This document shows positions 1 through 10,374 of a DNA stretch of 10,374 nt, piece after piece (position 1 is the first letter of the stretch; every line of letters starts with the position of its first letter). Below the pieces are notes generated by a model, which searched no databases, was not told where the DNA came from, and saw only the letters and a program-made list of their open reading frames with translations. The position numbers and the translations under genes are program-made. The stretch comes from Acidobacteriota bacterium. Lineage in GTDB: Bacteria; Acidobacteriota; Aminicenantia; UBA2199. The stretch lies in NCBI GenBank assembly GCA_021817755.1, contig JAKAGC010000081.1, positions 1 through 10,374 of the forward strand, given 5' to 3'.

Positions 1-1061
1 TTATCAATTGTAATATCATCGATTGTATTAAAATCAATAAAATCATATTCAACCCAATTCCAACTTGTAAGTAGCAAGGATTTCAGGTATGAACCCGCCC
101 ATTTCGAATAATTATAAGGAATAGAGTTAGTGCTGGCAATTCGTAATAATTTCATTCCTTTTTGTAAATCACCGTTTTTAATAAAAAAATATGCTTTCCA
201 GCTATCCAGGATAGCAGGTTTCTCTTTGAAAACAGATTTTTGTTCTAATTGACTTAAGATATCGAGAGACTTATCAAATTCTCCATCAAGTGCTAATAGC
301 TGAGCTTTTAGTATTTGAGCATCTTCTGAATGTTCATCCAATTTTAACGCTTCATCAAGATTGAAATATGCTTGATTTTTCATTATTTCTGCCTTAATTT
401 CCCAATCTTTAGCATTTTCTTCATACGTCGGCAACTCTATTTCACTTAATTTTCGAGGAGACGCTTTTCCCTTTTTCTCAACACTTGAAGTTACTCCCAC
501 CGCACCACTAGCATTTAAAGATTGAGTGGATGGATTCTGAGTTTTATTCATAGACACAGATGCCTCTCCGGTTATTTCCATTTGAAGATTTGTAGACTCA
601 GTCGCCGCTTCGGTTTTTTCTGTCTGAGTTTGAGTAGAATTTTGAGTCAAAGAATTGTCATCATACTTTAGAAATCCAATGTATTTCTCTGGCCTGGAAT
701 AGATAGAGTAAAGGGCTGTTTGGGTTGTTGCCAAATAAAGACGATATACCAAATCGTTTTTACTCTCTTTAATTTTTTGCCCCCAATCGTCCCTCAGTTG
801 AGTAAGTTGATTGAGTATTTCATTCAGAGCATGAAAACGATTTTTATACAAATCGATAACCTTTGCTTCATTCGATGTAAAAAGAGCGTTGAAGCGCTGA
901 ACTGGATACGATAATTCTTCCAACTTTTCCAAACATTCCTGAGTGGATTTTTGTAGTTCAAGTTTGTCTCTTGTGTTATACACAGCTGACAAATGAGGTG
1001 AAATAGCAATAAAAGCCAAAACAATAAATAGACAGACACATGTTTTTTTTAGTTTACTCAT
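1..1061 (-). CDS. Exported coiled-coil / TPR-like protein, 3' end missing
   Basis: An open frame runs from ATG at 1061 to the left edge without a stop, giving 353 residues of an incomplete protein. Residues 1-26 form a signal peptide: a KLKK n-region, a hydrophobic core at about 9-20, and a signal peptidase I site after HLSA. Residues 30-105 are charged, helical and probably coiled-coil. Residues 136-205 are a low-complexity Ser/Thr/Gln/Asn linker. Residues 220-310 are helix pairs with a TPR-like look, including AQILKAQLLALDGEFDKSLD at 248-267. The start is fixed by AAGGAG five bases upstream and by the ATGA overlap with the CHAT gene, which implies translational coupling. It is therefore probably a periplasmic or outer-membrane-facing scaffold working with the CHAT membrane protein. 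The TPR call is from helix spacing only, the specific function is unknown, and the missing C-terminus may hold another domain. Confidence 0.85.
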   Translation of the reverse strand, partial: MSKLKKTCVCLFIVLAFIAISPHLSAVYNTRDKLELQKSTQECLEKLEELSYPVQRFNALFTSNEAKVIDLYKNRFHALNEILNQLTQLRDDWGQKIKESKNDLVYRLYLATTQTALYSIYSRPEKYIGFLKYDDNSLTQNSTQTQTEKTEAATESTNLQMEITGEASVSMNKTQNPSTQSLNASGAVGVTSSVEKKGKASPRKLSEIELPTYEENAKDWEIKAEIMKNQAYFNLDEALKLDEHSEDAQILKAQLLALDGEFDKSLDILSQLEQKSVFKEKPAILDSWKAYFFIKNGDLQKGMKLLRIASTNSIPYNYSKWAGSYLKSLLLTSWNWVEYDFIDFNTIDDITID

Positions 1062-2740
1062 AGTTTCTCCTTTTTTATTTTAATTTTAAAATTTACTATT
1101 ACAATAATTTCATCAGTTGGTAATATGCCCCTCACACTACACCTACCAATCTCTATATCATCTTCATTCAAACTAAGTTTTTCAGAATGGTTTTGATTAT
1201 ATTCCTCAATTGCCTTTTTAATTGCATTATCACATGCTTCATTCTGGTTTTTTCCGATTCCTTCAGCAGTAAGCGGTATTTCCACGATGATAAAATCCTT
1301 ATGATTAACTTTATTTTCACTAGTAGGTTTCTTTTTTTCTACTTTTGTATTTTCTGTGTTTCTAATACCCAATTTTTTACTATTATCCTGACTAATAATG
1401 CTTTTTGAATTAGTTGTATATTTGCGATTTAAATCAGGACGTAAGCTTTCAAAATTCATAACTGTTTTTATTTCTGGGAATAATAAAAATACGAACGTCA
1501 AAACTATAATAACCATACTTAAAATTTTAATCCCTTCAGCAGTTTTTCGTTTTATATTTATTTTTGATTTGGAATCGATAAAAATAATATTAAAGACCGA
1601 TAAAGTGGGAATTAATATTTGAAGAAATGAATTAGATGCCCAATATGATTTTAAAAAACAGTTATAAGTTTTTAAAACGATCGGGAAAAAAAGAATGAAT
1701 AGAAATATCTGAAAAATCAATTTTGCAGGTTGATTTGTACAATATCTAATACTTCGAATAAAAAAGTCTTTTAAAAAATTTTTTAACCCATCCGTCTTAA
1801 ATTTTTGAAACGACTCTTTTAGGTTTTCCAAAGAAATTAAAATTAAGTATAGTGCTTCAAGTAAAATGATTATGCAAAACGCAATCAACTCAACTTCAAT
1901 AAAACGATCTATGAAGTTGGAATCTCTCACAAATAATTTTAAAATAGGTTCCGATACTAGCAAGACTATATTAAGTAACCAGTATTGGAAGTTTATATAT
2001 TCAAATATTTTATTTTTTTCTTTTTTGAGAACAGGAATAGTTGTCGTATTACTATACCGATAGGTATTCTGGGTAGGTTTTTCAATAATGGACCGCCCAA
2101 CGGGTATTTCCTGGATAAAACCCGGATATGAAGGTTTTTTTTCATTTTGCAGGATGAATGTATTATCCGGATCCACTCCATCTTTTACCAATAAGTCCGG
2201 GATATCGGCTTCCGATATGTTCTCAAATAATAATGCGGTTCTACCCTGTTCGAATGCTTTTTTAACAGAACAACCAAAACCGATAGCCCTATAGAATGCA
2301 GCGGAGAAAACAATAGCAGCATTATCAGTAATGGTTGATTTCATTCCAATTACACAATCGATAACATTTCGAATGGCAAGTGCCTGTACCTTTGAATAAC
2401 AGGCATTTAAAATTACAACACGAATATTATCTTTTAAAGTTTCAAATAAAGTATTAATTGCATTGGCACTTACAGGTTTGGGGTTTCCTGTTTTATCGAG
2501 AAGCAAAAGCTCCCCCGCAGATGTGCCATGTGCACTAAAATGCACAATATGCGGTTTATATTCATTCAATTTCTGAAGAAGATCATCTGGCTGCGCTGCC
2601 ATTGAAGGAATCAAAACGATTGAATCACGATGTTTCGATCTACGAATTTTCTCAGTAATTTCCCGGATTTCATCTTCCAGGTTTAAACGTGTCATGAGCA
2701 TAGGATTTGCCGCAAAGAAGAGCGCTTCAATTTTTTCCAT
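1058..2740 (-). CDS. CHAT-domain (caspase-like) protease fused to a five-span membrane region and a C-terminal extracytoplasmic domain
   Basis: This 560-residue protein begins with a CHAT domain (clan CD cysteine protease, caspase-HetF-associated with TPRs) at about residues 1-197. The catalytic pair is visible: His71 in HFSAHG and Cys114 in LNACYS, each after a hydrophobic strand. The opening (LFFAANP), followed by RLNLEDEIREI and later VIGMKSTITDNAA, matches the common CHAT type seen fused to NTPases in cyanobacteria and other bacteria. Hydrophobic segments lie at about 253-270, 280-304, 341-359, 371-388 and 405-424. Loops 305-340 and 389-404 are Lys/Arg-rich, so the N-terminus should be cytoplasmic and the C-terminus outside. 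After a Lys-rich linker, residues 480-560 form a small alpha/beta domain (GIGKNQNEACDNAIKKA) that faintly recalls LPP20/FlgT-like domains; this is a weak guess. The start is supported by AGGAGT at 2753-2748. The protease class is well supported; substrate and trigger are unknown. Confidence 0.9.
   Translation of the reverse strand: MEKIEALFFAANPMLMTRLNLEDEIREITEKIRRSKHRDSIVLIPSMAAQPDDLLQKLNEYKPHIVHFSAHGTSAGELLLLDKTGNPKPVSANAINTLFETLKDNIRVVILNACYSKVQALAIRNVIDCVIGMKSTITDNAAIVFSAAFYRAIGFGCSVKKAFEQGRTALLFENISEADIPDLLVKDGVDPDNTFILQNEKKPSYPGFIQEIPVGRSIIEKPTQNTYRYSNTTTIPVLKKEKNKIFEYINFQYWLLNIVLLVSEPILKLFVRDSNFIDRFIEVELIAFCIIILLEALYLILISLENLKESFQKFKTDGLKNFLKDFFIRSIRYCTNQPAKLIFQIFLFILFFPIVLKTYNCFLKSYWASNSFLQILIPTLSVFNIIFIDSKSKINIKRKTAEGIKILSMVIIVLTFVFLLFPEIKTVMNFESLRPDLNRKYTTNSKSIISQDNSKKLGIRNTENTKVEKKKPTSENKVNHKDFIIVEIPLTAEGIGKNQNEACDNAIKKAIEEYNQNHSEKLSLNEDDIEIGRCSVRGILPTDEIIVIVNFKIKIKKEKL
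1067..1072 (-). promoter_or_regulatory. Ribosome binding site of the TPR-like gene, inside the CHAT gene
   Basis: AAGGAG reads on the minus strand five bases before the ATG at 1061. It lies within the last CHAT codons (Lys-Lys-Glu-Lys-Leu). Together with the four-base ATGA overlap it fixes the start and points to coupled translation of the two proteins. Confidence 0.8.
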
Positions 2741-2803: not shown

Positions 2804-3142
2804 TCATTCCGGCTCATTATCCCTTAATTCTATTTTTACATTGGCTGCTATATCCGATAAAAAAAGATTGGGAGGAATTCTAAATGTCCAGGCAGAATTA
2901 GCTCTACAATATAAAATTTTTATATTAGAATCGGATATTACATTTATAAAAAAATTCTCTATTTTCTCATTTTTAGGTTCTCTAATAATTAAAGCAGCTT
3001 CAGGATTCGGGATACCGACTTTTACTCGGCTTTCCTTTTCCAAAGTTATTTCCAGATCAAAAATCCCCCTTTCAACCTCTCTAAAAATTTTTACGTTTCT
3101 AAATGAAGAATTTTTCACAAGAATATCGGCACTATTTGCCAT
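2804..3142 (-). CDS. Small soluble protein of unknown function at the head of the CHAT cassette
   Basis: I do not recognise this 112-residue protein. It has no signal peptide or membrane segment. It is rich in alternating hydrophobic/charged strands (DILVKN, NVKIF, FDLEITLEKESRVKVGI, ALIIREP, NFFINVI, IKILYC, WTFRIP, NVKIELRD), so it is probably a compact all-beta fold. It has one cysteine (Cys79). The start is supported by a very strong Shine-Dalgarno. It lies 63 bases upstream of the CHAT gene on the same strand with no terminator between, so the two are probably cotranscribed. Because it is cytoplasmic and next to a CHAT protease, it could be an adaptor, inhibitor or substrate, comparable in position to the small 'effector-associated' components of CHAT conflict systems. 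That role is inference from position. An antisense TTG-start frame over the same stretch lacks a ribosome site and was rejected. Confidence 0.8.
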   Translation of the reverse strand: MANSADILVKNSSFRNVKIFREVERGIFDLEITLEKESRVKVGIPNPEAALIIREPKNEKIENFFINVISDSNIKILYCRANSAWTFRIPPNLFLSDIAANVKIELRDNEPE

Positions 3143-3355: not shown

Positions 3356-6300
3356 TTACTCTGATTCTGATTCCGTCACTTTATATTGATGGGGAGAGAC
3401 ATGGAATTTTTTTTTGAAACATTCCGAAAAATAAGAAGGAGTGGAAAAACCCACAGCCATAGCAACTTCAGTAACATTTCCGAAATTCTTTTTTAACAAT
3501 TGTGCTGCTCTTTCCAGACGGTAAGATTGGATAAATTCCATTGGATTTTCTCCGGTTAACGCTTTCACTTTCCTGAATAATGTGGTACGTCCCATTAAAA
3601 GTTTTCTATGCAATACATCGATATCCAGGTCTGTACTTGATAAATTCTCTTCTATTATTTGTTGGAAATCCTTAAGAAATTGATCATCCTGTGAAGAGAC
3701 AGTTATTTCAGCCGGTAATAACATTTTCCGGCGTTGAATTTTTAACTGTAATTGCCGTCTTAACTCGATTAGATTTCGGATTCGAGCTAGTAATATCTGA
3801 GTATTAAACGGTTTTGTCACGTAATCATCTGCCCCAGTATCCAAACCACGTATAACACTCTCCTCAGATACCCTTGCAGTTAATAAAATAATGGGAATGT
3901 GACTGGTTGCCATATCCTTCTTTAATATTTTGCATAATTCGAATCCCTCTTTCCCAGGCATCATAATATCGCTAAGTATCAAATCGGGAATAATTGCCCT
4001 TGCTTTCTGAATTCCTTCATCTCCATCGATGGCTTCAACAACTTCATATTTTTCAGCCCGCAGAGGTCCACTTATATATTGCCTCATATCAGCATTATCC
4101 TCTACAACCAGGATAACTTGTTGTTCCTGTTCAGAAATTTTTTTCTCTTGTGATTTATCTTTAACTGATACTATTTTTTTATTTGATGTATCCAGTTTAT
4201 CTAATTCTTCAGGTGTACCCCCCTCCACACTTTCAAGCTCAACGCTCTCTATATTAGATAGTAATTTTTCTATATTAAAGGAAATGACGGGAGTGGTGGA
4301 CGAAATTTCATCCATTTCCAGGTGAGTAGACCCGGAAGGCAAACGAATAATAAATTCAGTACCTTTTCCCTCATGGCTAAAAACTTCTATTGTACCTTTA
4401 TGCAACTGAATAATTTCTTTAGATAAGGCAAGCCCGAGTCCTGTACCACGGTATTGAGCCGTGTTTCTGTTGTCAGCCTGATAAAAACGGTCAAAAATAT
4501 AATCCAATTCCTCCTCCGGTATTCCTGTTCCGGTATCTTTCACAGAAATCAAAACATCGCCGTTAGAGATATTACCCTCATTTATTCCGGAAGGTGCAAA
4601 AGAGAGAGATATAGTGATGCTTCCACCCTGTGGAGTAAACTTTATTGCATTTATAAGGAGATTATACATAACTTCCTCCATTCTATGGGGATCAAAAAAA
4701 AGGAATAATTCTTTTTCTGCGGAAATCATTTTTAATTCAAGGTGATTCTTCTGGACCAGGACCTCAAATGCGTTTATAATTCCTTTCAGAAATACTACTA
4801 AATCCAGGTGTACCGTATTTAATTTCATTTTTCCGCTATCAACACGCGAGAGATCCAATAATTGATTTATTAAATTCAACAACCGTTGTGCATTTCGAAG
4901 CATCAAACGGAAATCTTTTTTCTGCTGCTTATCATCACTAATTGACAACATCTGTTCCAGAGGACTTATAATCAACGTTAAAGGGGTTCGAAATTCATGT
5001 GAGATATTGGCAAAAAACCGAGATTTCACCTTGTCCATTTCCTTTAATCTTTCAGACTGATCGCTTAATTGCCGGTTTTTTTCATTAATTTCTTTCGTCC
5101 GGTCCTTGACAGCTTGTTCCAATTTCTTTTTTTCTTTTATCAATTTTGCAGACCGTAGTTGTACAACAGTGTAAGTTGTTAAGATTAACCCTGCACCATA
5201 AAAAAAAAACGCCCACCAGGTTAGAAACCAAGGGGGTAAAATCTTAAAACAATATTCTGCATCCTGTCCTATTTCACCATAAACATTCCGCGCTTGTACC
5301 CGAAAAGAATAATTCCCAGGACTTAAATTTGAAAAATTCTTCCGTGTGTTTTTACTCCACTTAGACCATCTATCTTGGTATCCATTAAGAATATAACGAT
5401 ACTCCGTTTCTGTTTCCGCTTCAAAAAAGGGAGCAGCAAACTCAAAATCGAGATAACGATTTTTATATTCAAGTATTTTTGTATTTACTTGAGATGCCTT
5501 ACCGATTTGGTTTGTCCATCCTCCAAATAGTTGAGCTTCCGTTTTCCGGTTTTCATTGGTTACTACCTTTCGAATCAAGGTAGGAAATGTTTGTTTTTTA
5601 TCTCTGATTTTAGTTGTATCGATTCTTATCAAACCTTCTAATCCGGCGAGCCAAATAGACTTCCCTTTCGGATCGGAATAGATAGAATTTATTGTGGTTA
5701 TTGGAATTCTTAAAAAAGGCCGTAAATCGATATCATAACTTCCGTCACCTCTGGGAATAGCCCGGAAATTTCCTGTTTTTGATTGAACCCATAAATTATT
5801 CTCTTCATCTTCTACATACTGAAAAATGGGTATACCATTCACTCCTCCTGCAAATTCCTGGCCCAATACCGCTGAGGGTGATATGGTATATTTAAGCGAA
5901 TCAGGTTTAAATAATCCTTTATTTGTACTTAAAATTACATTTCCGTTTATGGTAGATGTAAAAATATTATTAATGGTGTATTTAGTTGGTGTAGAATAAT
6001 GCGAAATATTTGGTGAATCGGTGTTAATAGGCGCAGTAATTTTGGTTAGCCGGTTAGATGACGTACTTAACCATAGATTCCCATTTCTATCTTCCGTAAT
6101 GCTTTTTATTGGATTTTGTATTTGAGGGAATTGTTTTTCAACAACCCATTGCCCATTTTTATACGACAAGATACTTAAGCCGTTTACCATTCCACACCAG
6201 ACCCTATTGGGATAATACGTTGATAATAATAATACAGTAGACATCCCCGCAGTAACTAATCGAGTGCGGTTGTTTTGAATTTGAAATATGCCATCATCTG

Positions 6301-7543
6301 TTGCAGCCAATATGGAATCATCCACTGAAATTAAATTGGTGCAGTTTGCATGGATTGAATTGACAGTTTGAAATTTTAATAACGACTGATAATAGTATAG
6401 ACCTTTTTCCGTACCGACATAAAGGTTATTCTGATGCCGGAGAACTGATAAAACAATACCATTTAAACCGGTCCGTTTATCAAAAATGGAAATGGGCGAG
6501 CCGAATTCAATTTTTGTAATCCCATTATCTAAGCATAACCACAAATTTCCTTCTTTATCCTGAAACACAGAATTAACTCTTTCATCTTGTAATCCGAAAT
6601 TCTTATCGAAAATTGAAATAATCTGTCCTTTAGAATTTATAACAATAAGGCCTCCACCCAATGTTGCAAGGGCGAATTTGGGAGTATTGGATTGAAGCCG
6701 GATACCTTGTGAAAGTTTATTATTTTTTAGATAAAGATCTGCCTCTGTTTTGAAAAAAACTGCACTTTTTCCATCATATAGGTATAATCCTTTGGAATGG
6801 GTTCCAATAAGAAAGCGATTTGTATTATTTTCAAATGGTACCATCATCTCAACCTTTTCATTGGTAAATTGTTCACCTCCAGGTATCAATTGAGTTTCAT
6901 CACCATTTATTTTCATTAGTCCTATCTCTGATTGTTGAACATAATATTCATGCATGCATTCAAATGCAGATATAAATTTCCCGGGAATATTACTCATCGT
7001 GTTATTTTTCGTATTCCATTTAAAAAGATTATCTGTTGTCTGAAAATAAACATTATCCTTTATGGCATGTATTTGCCTTATGGAGAAAGATTTCTTTGCA
7101 GGTCCTTTGATATAGTTTAATAAAGAAATATAATACAATTGTCCTTCCGAAGTTGAGGTCAGGTAACCAATTTTATTTATTCCTCCTAAATATATAGTTC
7201 CTTCCTCATCAATGGCAATAGATCTGACTAAAGCATTCCCTTGTGTAGCAATAATTCGCCAACTTACACCGTCATATTCAAGGATTCCGCCATTAGTGGC
7301 GACATGGAGTAATCCATTCTTTGACTGTAGTATCTGCCAATTTTGGGTTTGACGATAATATTCCGAGTAATTATAATTCTTTAGAAATTTGAACCCCTCT
7401 TCCTGGCAAAAGACACTTAATTCTGTTGAAATACCAAGACTTAAAACAATAATAATTAATACAACCCAAATAAATATGGGAATATTTTTTATTAGCTCTG
7501 ATTTAACTTTCATTGATTTTGGTTCTATTTTGGTGTTTTTCAT
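3356..7543 (-). CDS. Hybrid two-component system: periplasmic propeller sensor, histidine kinase, receiver and AraC-type regulator in one protein
   Basis: This 1395-residue one-piece signalling protein has an N-terminal signal/anchor at about 21-38. Periplasmic propeller repeats span about 45-690, with typical blades such as SVFQDKEGNLWLCLDNGITK (326-345) and SITEDRNGNLWLSTSSNRLT (481-500). A Y_Y_Y domain follows at about 695-768, then a membrane span at about 774-796 and a coiled-coil linker. The HisKA domain carries phospho-acceptor His849 (SHEFRTPL). The ATPase domain has an N-box (NLLINAIKFT), DTGTGIP and GTGLGLAL. The receiver, about 1143-1260, has Glu1148/Asp1149, acceptor Asp1192 (SDIMMPG), Thr1222 and Lys1244. 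The AraC-type DNA-binding domain spans about 1290-1390 (VAMAVGFSTPSYFSECFKKK). All key residues are present. In Bacteroidota such proteins usually sense glycan fragments and regulate neighbouring carbohydrate genes, but none is visible here. The linker between ATPase and receiver (about 1072-1140) is long and acidic. The start has only a weak AGAAG upstream; Met11 is an alternative. Confidence 0.95.
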   Translation of the reverse strand: MKNTKIEPKSMKVKSELIKNIPIFIWVVLIIIVLSLGISTELSVFCQEEGFKFLKNYNYSEYYRQTQNWQILQSKNGLLHVATNGGILEYDGVSWRIIATQGNALVRSIAIDEEGTIYLGGINKIGYLTSTSEGQLYYISLLNYIKGPAKKSFSIRQIHAIKDNVYFQTTDNLFKWNTKNNTMSNIPGKFISAFECMHEYYVQQSEIGLMKINGDETQLIPGGEQFTNEKVEMMVPFENNTNRFLIGTHSKGLYLYDGKSAVFFKTEADLYLKNNKLSQGIRLQSNTPKFALATLGGGLIVINSKGQIISIFDKNFGLQDERVNSVFQDKEGNLWLCLDNGITKIEFGSPISIFDKRTGLNGIVLSVLRHQNNLYVGTEKGLYYYQSLLKFQTVNSIHANCTNLISVDDSILAATDDGIFQIQNNRTRLVTAGMSTVLLLSTYYPNRVWCGMVNGLSILSYKNGQWVVEKQFPQIQNPIKSITEDRNGNLWLSTSSNRLTKITAPINTDSPNISHYSTPTKYTINNIFTSTINGNVILSTNKGLFKPDSLKYTISPSAVLGQEFAGGVNGIPIFQYVEDEENNLWVQSKTGNFRAIPRGDGSYDIDLRPFLRIPITTINSIYSDPKGKSIWLAGLEGLIRIDTTKIRDKKQTFPTLIRKVVTNENRKTEAQLFGGWTNQIGKASQVNTKILEYKNRYLDFEFAAPFFEAETETEYRYILNGYQDRWSKWSKNTRKNFSNLSPGNYSFRVQARNVYGEIGQDAEYCFKILPPWFLTWWAFFFYGAGLILTTYTVVQLRSAKLIKEKKKLEQAVKDRTKEINEKNRQLSDQSERLKEMDKVKSRFFANISHEFRTPLTLIISPLEQMLSISDDKQQKKDFRLMLRNAQRLLNLINQLLDLSRVDSGKMKLNTVHLDLVVFLKGIINAFEVLVQKNHLELKMISAEKELFLFFDPHRMEEVMYNLLINAIKFTPQGGSITISLSFAPSGINEGNISNGDVLISVKDTGTGIPEEELDYIFDRFYQADNRNTAQYRGTGLGLALSKEIIQLHKGTIEVFSHEGKGTEFIIRLPSGSTHLEMDEISSTTPVISFNIEKLLSNIESVELESVEGGTPEELDKLDTSNKKIVSVKDKSQEKKISEQEQQVILVVEDNADMRQYISGPLRAEKYEVVEAIDGDEGIQKARAIIPDLILSDIMMPGKEGFELCKILKKDMATSHIPIILLTARVSEESVIRGLDTGADDYVTKPFNTQILLARIRNLIELRRQLQLKIQRRKMLLPAEITVSSQDDQFLKDFQQIIEENLSSTDLDIDVLHRKLLMGRTTLFRKVKALTGENPMEFIQSYRLERAAQLLKKNFGNVTEVAMAVGFSTPSYFSECFKKKFHVSPHQYKVTESESE

Positions 7544-9311: not shown

Positions 9312-9331
9312 TTGTATGTTAACCTATACAA
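9312..9331 (+). repeat. Inverted repeat in the leader of the cysteine-rich peptide gene
   Basis: TTGTAT (9312-9317) and ATACAA (9326-9331) are perfect inverted arms around GTTAACCT, which itself contains the palindrome GTTAAC. The element lies between TTGACT (9296-9301) and the GGAGG ribosome site (9342-9346). It is therefore placed where an operator or a short 5' leader hairpin would act. Its arms are short, so it could be chance. Confidence 0.35.
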
Positions 9332-9341
9332 AGCCTGCCTT

Positions 9342-9346
9342 GGAGG
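9342..9346 (+). promoter_or_regulatory. Ribosome binding site that sets the peptide start at 9352
   Basis: GGAGG lies five bases before ATG 9352. An in-frame upstream ATG at 9316 has no such site and would add twelve residues ahead of a signal peptide, so 9352 is the supported start. Confidence 0.8.
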
Positions 9347-9351
9347 AATAT

Positions 9352-9576
9352 ATGAAAGTAATATTATCAACAAAATGGTGGATAGGAATTTGTATCTTTT
9401 TAATCCTCACGTCGTACTTTTTAATCCCTTGTTCTGCAAATAAGAGTTGCGGGGGAGGGAAAATTGCCGGTTGCAACACAGGAACATGTACCGGCGGTTC
9501 GTGTTCTCAGACTGCATGGGGAGTAACCTGCTCATGTGATGGCAGAACAACCGAGGATTATTGCCCTATTTACTAA
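9352..9576 (+). CDS. Small exported cysteine-rich peptide, unrecognised family
   Basis: The product is 74 residues. Residues 1-29 are a signal peptide: basic start (MKVILSTKWW), hydrophobic core at about 11-25 (IGICIFLILTSYFLI), and a likely cleavage after PCSA at 29. Lipidation at Cys27 is unlikely because the residue before it is proline, which does not fit a lipobox. The mature part, about 45 residues, is Gly/Ser/Thr-rich and has seven cysteines at 33, 41, 46, 51, 60, 62 and 71 (SCGGGKIAGC, CTGGSC, TCSCDG), ending in YCPIY. Such cysteine density after export suggests disulfides, metal binding or a modified peptide. The next gene, 10 bases downstream, encodes a six-bladed-propeller protein. 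That arrangement recalls Bacteroidota NVEALA-type peptides, but the NVEALA signature is absent and no modifying enzyme lies in the window. The gene is real by ribosome site, signal peptide and operon spacing; its role is unknown. Confidence 0.85.
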   Translation: MKVILSTKWWIGICIFLILTSYFLIPCSANKSCGGGKIAGCNTGTCTGGSCSQTAWGVTCSCDGRTTEDYCPIY

Positions 9577-9586
9577 ATAGTTTTAA

Positions 9587-10374
9587 ATGAATAAGGCTAA
9601 AGCATTTCTATCTTTTAAAGCATTTCTATATATTTTTTTTATTTCCCTTTCGGGAATCCTAATTCAAAACTTTCAAGATGCTCCACAGATTCAATCGAAT
9701 TTATCGGTAACGATCATTCCAGTAAATAAAGATGTGATCTATCATTCTGGTGTGAAACTGGATTCCTTTATCGATTATCGAACACATCTTCATCCGGGTT
9801 TTATTAAACAGGAAATGAGCGGTCATCCCATAAAATTGAGAGAACCTCTTCCTCTTGAATTATCTGACGAATCCCCGGTTATTTTTGGAGAAGAAGAAAA
9901 CTCTGATGGAACAACTGGGTTATTGTCGGAAATACGTTGCATGGGAATCGATTCCAGAGAGAATCTAATCATAATTGACTGGAATCAATCTTCGATTCTC
10001 CGATTTAATAAAAACGGAACTCCATTACCCTTTATTGGTCGCGAAGGTCCAGGTGGCCCCGGAGATTTTCTCATTCCTGCAGCATTAACTATTTCCAGCA
10101 ATGACACACTTCTCATCTTTGATCAACAGTTGGAGAGATTTAGTTTAATTTCTAACGAGCTAAAATGTACAACTAATTTCCGGTTTACTCATTATTTAAC
10201 TTCTGACTGGCTTTATTCCGATTCTCATAACAATGTATACTGTATGATTTCGGATTATTCGGAATCGAACCGATTACGCTGGCAATCCCTTGATAGATTT
10301 GATTTATCCGGTCAAAATAAAACAACTATCGCATCATATAACTGGCAAGATTATAAAGGTTCAGTATGGGGCTG
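9587..10374 (+). CDS. Six-bladed beta-propeller protein (NHL-like), 3' end missing
   Basis: The frame opens at ATG 9587 and is still open at the right edge (262 residues seen). An in-frame TAA directly before the ATG (9584-9586) rules out an earlier start. Residues about 7-27 are hydrophobic (FLYIFFISLSGILI), a signal peptide or N-terminal anchor, so the protein is exported or membrane-tethered. NHL-type blades follow: residues 114-141 (IDSRENLIIIDWNQSSILRF) and 142-189, including GREGPGGPGDFLIPAALTIS and LLIFDQQLERF. The G-x-G-P-G-D/E-F pattern followed by a strand and a D-x-x-x-x-R turn is the hallmark of the '6-bladed beta-propeller' family (DUF5128-like) abundant in Bacteroidota and relatives. 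Members usually run to about 400 residues, so roughly a third is missing. It has no obvious ribosome site and follows the peptide gene by 10 bases, consistent with one operon. Its ligand is unknown; the peptide is an obvious candidate partner, by position only. Confidence 0.85.
   Translation, partial: MNKAKAFLSFKAFLYIFFISLSGILIQNFQDAPQIQSNLSVTIIPVNKDVIYHSGVKLDSFIDYRTHLHPGFIKQEMSGHPIKLREPLPLELSDESPVIFGEEENSDGTTGLLSEIRCMGIDSRENLIIIDWNQSSILRFNKNGTPLPFIGREGPGGPGDFLIPAALTISSNDTLLIFDQQLERFSLISNELKCTTNFRFTHYLTSDWLYSDSHNNVYCMISDYSESNRLRWQSLDRFDLSGQNKTTIASYNWQDYKGSVWG
9598..9629 (+). repeat. 14-base direct repeat inside the propeller signal sequence
   Basis: TAAAGCATTTCTAT occurs at 9598-9611 and again at 9616-9629. 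The period is 18 bases, exactly six codons, so the protein repeats KAFLSF / KAFLYI. It looks like an in-frame tandem duplication that lengthened the signal sequence. Confidence 0.7.

Follow-up and report, generated by a model that had tools for sequence, protein, structure and literature searches.

Introduction

Membrane-bound proteases of the caspase superfamily have been described in several bacterial systems, and here we compare them with a locus on a 10,374-nucleotide stretch of DNA from an Acidobacteriota bacterium (contig JAKAGC010000081.1 of assembly GCA_021817755.1; hereafter the window), in which a gene for a CHAT-domain protease with a predicted membrane region overlaps a gene for a putatively secreted TPR-like protein. 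The type III-E CRISPR protein TPR-CHAT (Csx29) is a CHAT protein fused to TPR and stands beside a Cas effector. EACC1 ('System 4') combines a small 5' gene and a 3' gene with an N-terminal caspase-superfamily protease and a variable C-terminus, and at least 33% of its caspase proteins contain membrane spans, some together with a periplasmic-binding domain outside (PMC7159879). The caspases of EACC2 can carry CHASE2 domains outside (PMC8195603), and T. erythraeum has a membrane protein, presented in a survey of 2012, that joins a metacaspase lying inside to CHASE2 (PMC3501461). Membrane attachment is also predicted for the CHAT protein HetF (PMC8406250), and a CHAT-TIR protein is the target of a diversity-generating retroelement (PMC10907252). 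Because EACC1, EACC2 and the metacaspase-CHASE2 protein have already been published, membrane caspases acting as receptors are not in themselves a new concept.

The CHAT protein of the window resembles EACC1 in having an N-terminal caspase-superfamily protease, a variable C-terminal part and membrane spans. It differs in that the protease is of the CHAT type, scoring 14.4 bits with the EACC1-associated caspase model NF047832 (cut-off 140); in that the 5' gene of EACC1 encodes a single membrane helix, whereas the 112-amino-acid protein encoded upstream here lacks a hydrophobic segment; and in that the next gene after CHAT encodes a secreted TPR-like protein. With EACC2 and the metacaspase-CHASE2 protein it shares a protease predicted inside, spans and a receptor-like domain outside, but those proteins join a caspase or metacaspase to CHASE2, and the available text on them mentions neither a dodecin-like domain nor a secreted TPR partner. 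HetF is likewise a CHAT protein with a predicted span, yet it has one span, carries its TPR within the same protein and acts in cell division (PMC8406250); the HetF model NF045509 (cut-off 1200) gives the window protein 16.7 bits. Csx29 shares the combination of a CHAT protease with a TPR theme but goes with a CRISPR effector, whereas the TPR part here is secreted as a protein of its own; when seven proteins of the window were scanned with Pfam, the CHAT protein gave no TPR match and none of the seven matched a Cas family. In the open-access literature we found none of three features described: a CHAT form with a multi-span relay, an outside domain resembling dodecin, and a secreted TPR-like partner that a secreted caspase has as well. 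An earlier note on this DNA, made from its letters alone, had proposed a transmembrane switch in which an envelope signal controls a cytoplasmic caspase-like protease, possibly in stress, phage defence or cell death.

Results

A CHAT protease with a membrane region and a conserved C-terminal domain

The CHAT gene (2740..1058, minus strand, as are all parts of it given below) is an intact open reading frame of 560 amino acids. Residues 1-192 (2165..2740) make up the CHAT, or caspase-like, domain: PF12770 matches residues 22-171 in the Pfam scan (E 2e-9; 37.8 bits, above the curated cut-off of 24), the PADLOC 'chat' model matches with E 1.6e-14, and the top PDB sequence match is 8tl0, itself a CHAT protein (E 3e-13). 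The predicted catalytic residues of this putative protease are His71 (codon 2530-2528) and Cys114 (codon 2401-2399). At the other end, residues 481-560 (1061..1300) form a C-terminal domain that also occurs in four full-length relatives (P0002-P0005) and in a further protein, P0007. Modelled alone, it reaches a predicted local distance difference test score (pLDDT) of 81.6 and has a predicted beta-alpha-beta-beta fold nearest to dodecin folds; its location is probably extracytoplasmic. No match to PF07311 (dodecin) reached E<=1, either with the full CHAT protein or with residues 476-560 as query, and a PDB sequence search with the domain found no credible relative (best E 0.32). Descent from dodecins was also considered by profile comparison, where the score of 21.1 stood beside a best shuffle of 20.6 in 300 shuffles, and we do not claim it. 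In a sample of 396 genomes of the phylum, in which the inclusion of G005 (a genome discussed below) is not established, the C-terminal profile matched two: the window's own genome and, partially, G015 (E 0.008).

To place the protein among its relatives, 5.8 billion proteins were searched, of which 7993 were scored and 562 reached E<=0.001; the statements that follow concern the best 120. The whole architecture, with all parts in the same order, is shared by four metagenomic proteins, P0002-P0005 (40-53% identity over 98-100%). In the remaining relatives the alignment is largely confined to CHAT (33-44% of the query; 67% in P0009), and their Pfam accessions include TIR, FGE, FHA, NTPase and WD40. 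Beyond residue 180, 11 of the 120 have strong hydrophobic segments: the window protein, P0002-P0005, P0006 (three segments), P0007 (one), and P0017, P0020, P0021 and P0024 (one each). Membrane tethering is thus a minority form of this CHAT group. The positions of His71 and Cys114 are H and C in 120 out of 120, the window protein included. The earlier note had rightly described an intact CHAT domain with this pair and a C-terminal domain at about 480-560, and it had tied its reading to homologues that keep the pair and the membrane region; the pair is kept throughout, and the membrane region is retained in the four full-length relatives and missing from most others. Of the 120, 109 lack a strong span after residue 180. 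The note's remark that CHAT proteases are mostly soluble or fused to other domains overlooks the published membrane caspases and the single span of HetF.

As a separate observation, P0017, P0020, P0021 and P0024 each consist of CHAT, one strong span and then about 450 amino acids; P0017, the one member of the four that was scanned, has no Pfam match besides CHAT. When everything after CHAT (linker, membrane region and C-terminal part) was made into a profile, it found only P0005 and the window protein among 7994 scored candidates, and its silence means little because it missed P0002-P0004, which are in its own alignment, and because only those 7994 were scored. None of 105 pattern matches in viral contigs was confirmed, and a search of genome contigs gave two cyanobacterial loci in which the match is confined to the CHAT part.

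Topology of the membrane region

The membrane region (residues 251-423; 1472..1990) is marked by hydrophobicity scans and model helices and is present in P0002-P0005. The scans delimit segments at about 251-270 (TM1, weak), 285-304, 339-358, about 371-389 (TM4, weak) and 403-422 (TM5). In the window protein alone four segments pass and TM1 fails, while the family average leaves only 285-304, 339-358 and 403-422; TM1 passes in three of five family members and TM4 in four of five. A full-length AlphaFold model, built from six input sequences and used only as a hint for helices, places helices at 251-270 and 371-387 with low confidence. Of the five hydrophobic segments claimed earlier, three are therefore strong and two only weak, and modelling of the whole protein, also suggested there, supplied helices at both weak segments from what is a poor model (pLDDT 52.8). 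The second linker, after the membrane region (residues 424-480; 1301..1471), is low in conservation (12-24% identity between the window protein and P0002-P0005) and in model confidence (pLDDT <50 over 420-484).

Several weak to moderate lines support an orientation with the N-terminus in and the C-terminus out, in which the CHAT domain would be cytoplasmic and the C-terminal domain would lie outside the inner membrane. The Lys/Arg-rich loops at 305-340 and 389-404 are present as the earlier note had said. With segment borders set by hand on the family alignment (A1), Lys plus Arg residues number 17 in predicted inside loops and 7 in outside loops of the window protein, and 17/8, 15/6, 17/6 and 14/5 in the other four members. 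This bias, although it has the same direction in five out of five, is modest evidence, since the loops predicted inside add up to a greater length and TM5 is itself followed by basic residues. P0007 consists of CHAT, one strong span (dG -4.9) and then the same C-terminal domain, which would put that domain across the membrane from the protease. Two further lines, the overlapping gene, whose TPR-like product is secreted, and a caspase of G005 with a signal-peptide-like start, are described in the next section. Together, these observations favour the orientation that the earlier note had predicted from charge. A match to Omp85 (E 5.1e-40) points to a host with an outer membrane.

A putative secreted TPR-like partner, apparently shared with a second caspase-fold protease

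The gene that follows the CHAT gene (3..1061, minus strand, cut by the contig end) overlaps its stop codon by 4 base pairs (ATGA). Its product has a signal peptide in the first ~26 residues, as judged by eye, and a weak match to TPR_19 (E 1.1e-3, below cut-off). Three homologues, P0121-P0123, each begin with a signal-peptide-like stretch, again by eye. For P0121 and for P0003, a CHAT form, the longest contig listed has 9694 bases, which suggests that the two are neighbours on one contig; the two proteins show no significant sequence similarity to each other.

A homologue of the TPR-like protein (33% identity, E 5.8e-49) is encoded in G005, which belongs to a different genus within the family, where its gene follows one for a protein matching the end of Peptidase_C14 (3.6e-12). 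The first half of this caspase sits at the end of contig C264 (Peptidase_C14, 1.2e-19), and the two halves lie on two contigs that share 42 identical residues. The N-terminus is a signal-peptide-like stretch, and no span precedes the C-terminal domain. In the second half, 69 residues (138-206 of 212) align to the C-terminal domain of the window family: the hhalign score against the family profile is 30.5, a value reached by none of 400 shuffles (best 18.8), and among 292 C-termini scored only six family members exceed it, the next below being 21.8. If the N-terminal stretch is read as a signal peptide, protease, C-terminal domain and TPR protein of G005 would all lie outside the inner membrane. 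Since the G005 TPR homologue follows a C14 caspase ending in a similar C-terminal domain, one outside pair, made of the C-terminal domain and the secreted TPR protein, seems to recur with two families of caspase-fold protease. Across 142 genomes of the class, the TPR profile matched the window genome and G005, along with weak partial matches in five more that we take as generic TPR.

An apparent mosaic at the CHAT boundary

Over residues 1-192 (window 2740-2165) the window protein and P0002 are identical, 192 out of 192. Identity drops to about 30% over the ~370 residues that follow, with 37% in the linker, 32% in the membrane region, 18% in the second linker and 31% in the C-terminal domain, and sliding windows agree. 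Against P0003-P0005, either protein has 65-72% identity in CHAT and 27-36% in the membrane region. Among the 60 pairs listed by CHAT identity, four have long tails on both sides and only the window-P0002 pair has a divergent one; in the other pairs CHAT is C-terminal, and heads were left out of the comparison. The mosaic reflects either a recent exchange of CHAT between otherwise old alleles or an assembly chimera in one record.

A tentative extension, to which we give well under even weight, is that the system is modular: the outside pair of dodecin-like domain and secreted TPR-like protein would be combined by domain shuffling either with a CHAT protease in the cytoplasm, by way of a membrane relay, or directly with a C14 caspase that is secreted. 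Where CHAT is the protease, its half and the sensor half would be swapped by recombination at the CHAT/linker boundary, where full identity gives way to about 30%, so that the protease would be kept while the receptor diversifies.

Other membrane CHAT designs in related genomes

A simple motif filter applied to 21 loci yielded nine CHAT frames, three of them with strong hydrophobic segments. One, in G006 of the same genus (contig C378; L030:4769-6346(-)), is arranged as span-CHAT-span-FGE, each span being flanked by a Lys/Arg run where it faces CHAT, and is likely, from its sequence, another membrane CHAT protein with an outside domain, a parallel design.

A proposed mechanism and its alternatives

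We propose, with somewhat better than even confidence, that the CHAT protein is an inner-membrane signalling protease in which a cue outside, taken up by the TPR protein together with the C-terminal domain and passed on by the spans, activates the cytoplasmic CHAT domain. In a bacterium with an outer membrane, about five spans would join the cytoplasmic protease to the beta-alpha-beta-beta domain outside the inner membrane, where that domain would work with the co-encoded secreted TPR-like protein. The cue could be any change outside, such as a ligand, a damaged envelope part, contact or an invader. The TPR protein and the C-terminal domain, presumably in contact, would relay this change inwards and switch on the protease, which would then cut some substrate or itself. 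Such a switch may serve in stress, phage defence or cell death. Sequence and computation show the domain anatomy, the conserved His/Cys pair, the gene overlap and the recurrence of the TPR gene next to a second caspase-fold protease with a similar C-terminal domain; they support the topology, and the contact, the direction of the signal and the activation of the protease are inferred.

A number of observations weigh against this proposal. TM1 and TM4 are both weak, and if exactly one of these two segments did not span, the C-terminus would be inside. The charge bias is modest, the 20 residues after TM5 carry 3-4 Lys/Arg in every family member, and the full-length model is poor. The similarity of the G005 domain rests on one sequence, with an hhalign probability of 57-74%, and the signal peptide of that caspase, judged by eye, could be an anchor. 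With the TPR family in 2 of 142 genomes, the pairing itself rests on two loci and one 9694-base coincidence. As for the parallel designs, the G006 frame starts at GTG and its first span may fall outside the gene, and in two adjacent CHAT genes of G003 (contig C905; L033) the hydrophobic segments lie in the C-terminal half, with no outside domain evident; of this pair, the gene that was scanned is CHAT-TIR.

An alternative that we consider unlikely, though the best of the competing explanations, is that the membrane region is the effector. By analogy with EACC1 and EACC2, for which autoproteolytic effector release and C-terminal parts with multiple transmembrane segments have been proposed (PMC7159879, PMC8195603), the CHAT domain would respond to a cytoplasmic trigger by cutting its own linker and freeing a multi-span pore or membrane-damaging unit. 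The linker in question (residues 193-250; 1991..2164) is poorly conserved, with 15-37% identity between the window protein and P0002-P0005 and with the full-length model reaching a pLDDT of 26-38 at residues 201-250, and the CHAT part is more conserved than the rest in all 10 pairs compared. However, the C-terminal domain is retained in P0007, which has one span, and a similar one in the G005 caspase, with no span before it, so that the element kept is the outside domain and not a pore; the co-encoded secreted partner also fits poorly with an effector.

It is still less probable that both ends are cytoplasmic. With four real spans, the C-terminal domain would be a cytoplasmic regulator that the secreted TPR neighbour does not touch, and this is what TM1 of the window protein, below the cut-off, and the basic residues after TM5 would suggest. 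Without TM1, however, the Lys/Arg-rich loops 305-340 and 389-404 would face outside, and the single span of P0007 and the signal-peptide-like start of the G005 caspase put related C-terminal domains outside. A housekeeping or developmental envelope protease, with a role like that of HetF at the divisome and not a stress or conflict switch, is very improbable: HetF, which has a CHAT domain and a single predicted span, localises to midcell and to cell junctions (PMC8406250), but occurrence here is patchy (the C-terminal profile matched two of the 396 sampled genomes, the window's own and one more weakly), the membrane and outside regions change fast, and the HetF model scores far below its cut-off.

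Neighbouring genes

Upstream of the CHAT gene, after a 63-base-pair gap, lies the gene for the 112-amino-acid protein (2804..3142, minus strand), which matched no Pfam family above cut-off in a scan for which the presence of an EACC1 model in Pfam was not checked. Its five relatives (loci L040-L044) are spread over three of the family's genomes, and four of them have a C14 caspase, a trypsin-like or a WD40 gene close by (G006:C147, G006:C255, G008:C913 and G005:C600), caspase and trypsin being assigned by Pfam for the genes scanned and the rest by eye. At the fifth, G006:C123, none of these genes was seen in the 3.3 kilobases viewed. The setting of the gene resembles published conflict systems. 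We also noted a second small protein family near a 112-amino-acid or trypsin-like gene in three loci: L060:1861-2334(+), L061:3567-3986(-) and L044:2124-2525(+).

Further upstream, a hybrid two-component regulator (3356..7543, minus strand) has Pfam matches to a propeller, Y_Y_Y, HisKA, HATPase, receiver and AraC, and is possibly the regulator of the CHAT gene. By reading, and in a count made post hoc, such a regulator is near four of seven loci (the window, G006:C123, G005:C600 and G005:C264) and was not seen at G006:C147, G006:C255 or G008:C913. Regulators of this type are abundant in these genomes, where Y_Y_Y matches number 30 in G000, 72 in G006, 42 in G008 and 18 in G005. A promoter scan returned 16 sites against 13.5 expected, and terminator-like sites numbered 3 against 1.1 expected, so that neither count is informative. 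On the plus strand, 9316-9576 encodes a Cys/Gly-rich 86-amino-acid peptide with a hydrophobic N-terminal part, and 9587-10372, just after it, encodes a six-bladed propeller protein with a DUF5128 match; the two are possibly a precursor peptide and its partner.

Discussion

If the proposed mechanism holds, the window would supply a concrete bacterial case in which a caspase-fold protease is controlled by a receptor from the far side of the inner membrane, and in which the outside partner of that receptor can be named. What a membrane caspase senses would thereby become testable. It would also suggest that one outside module has been combined with two families of caspase-fold protease.

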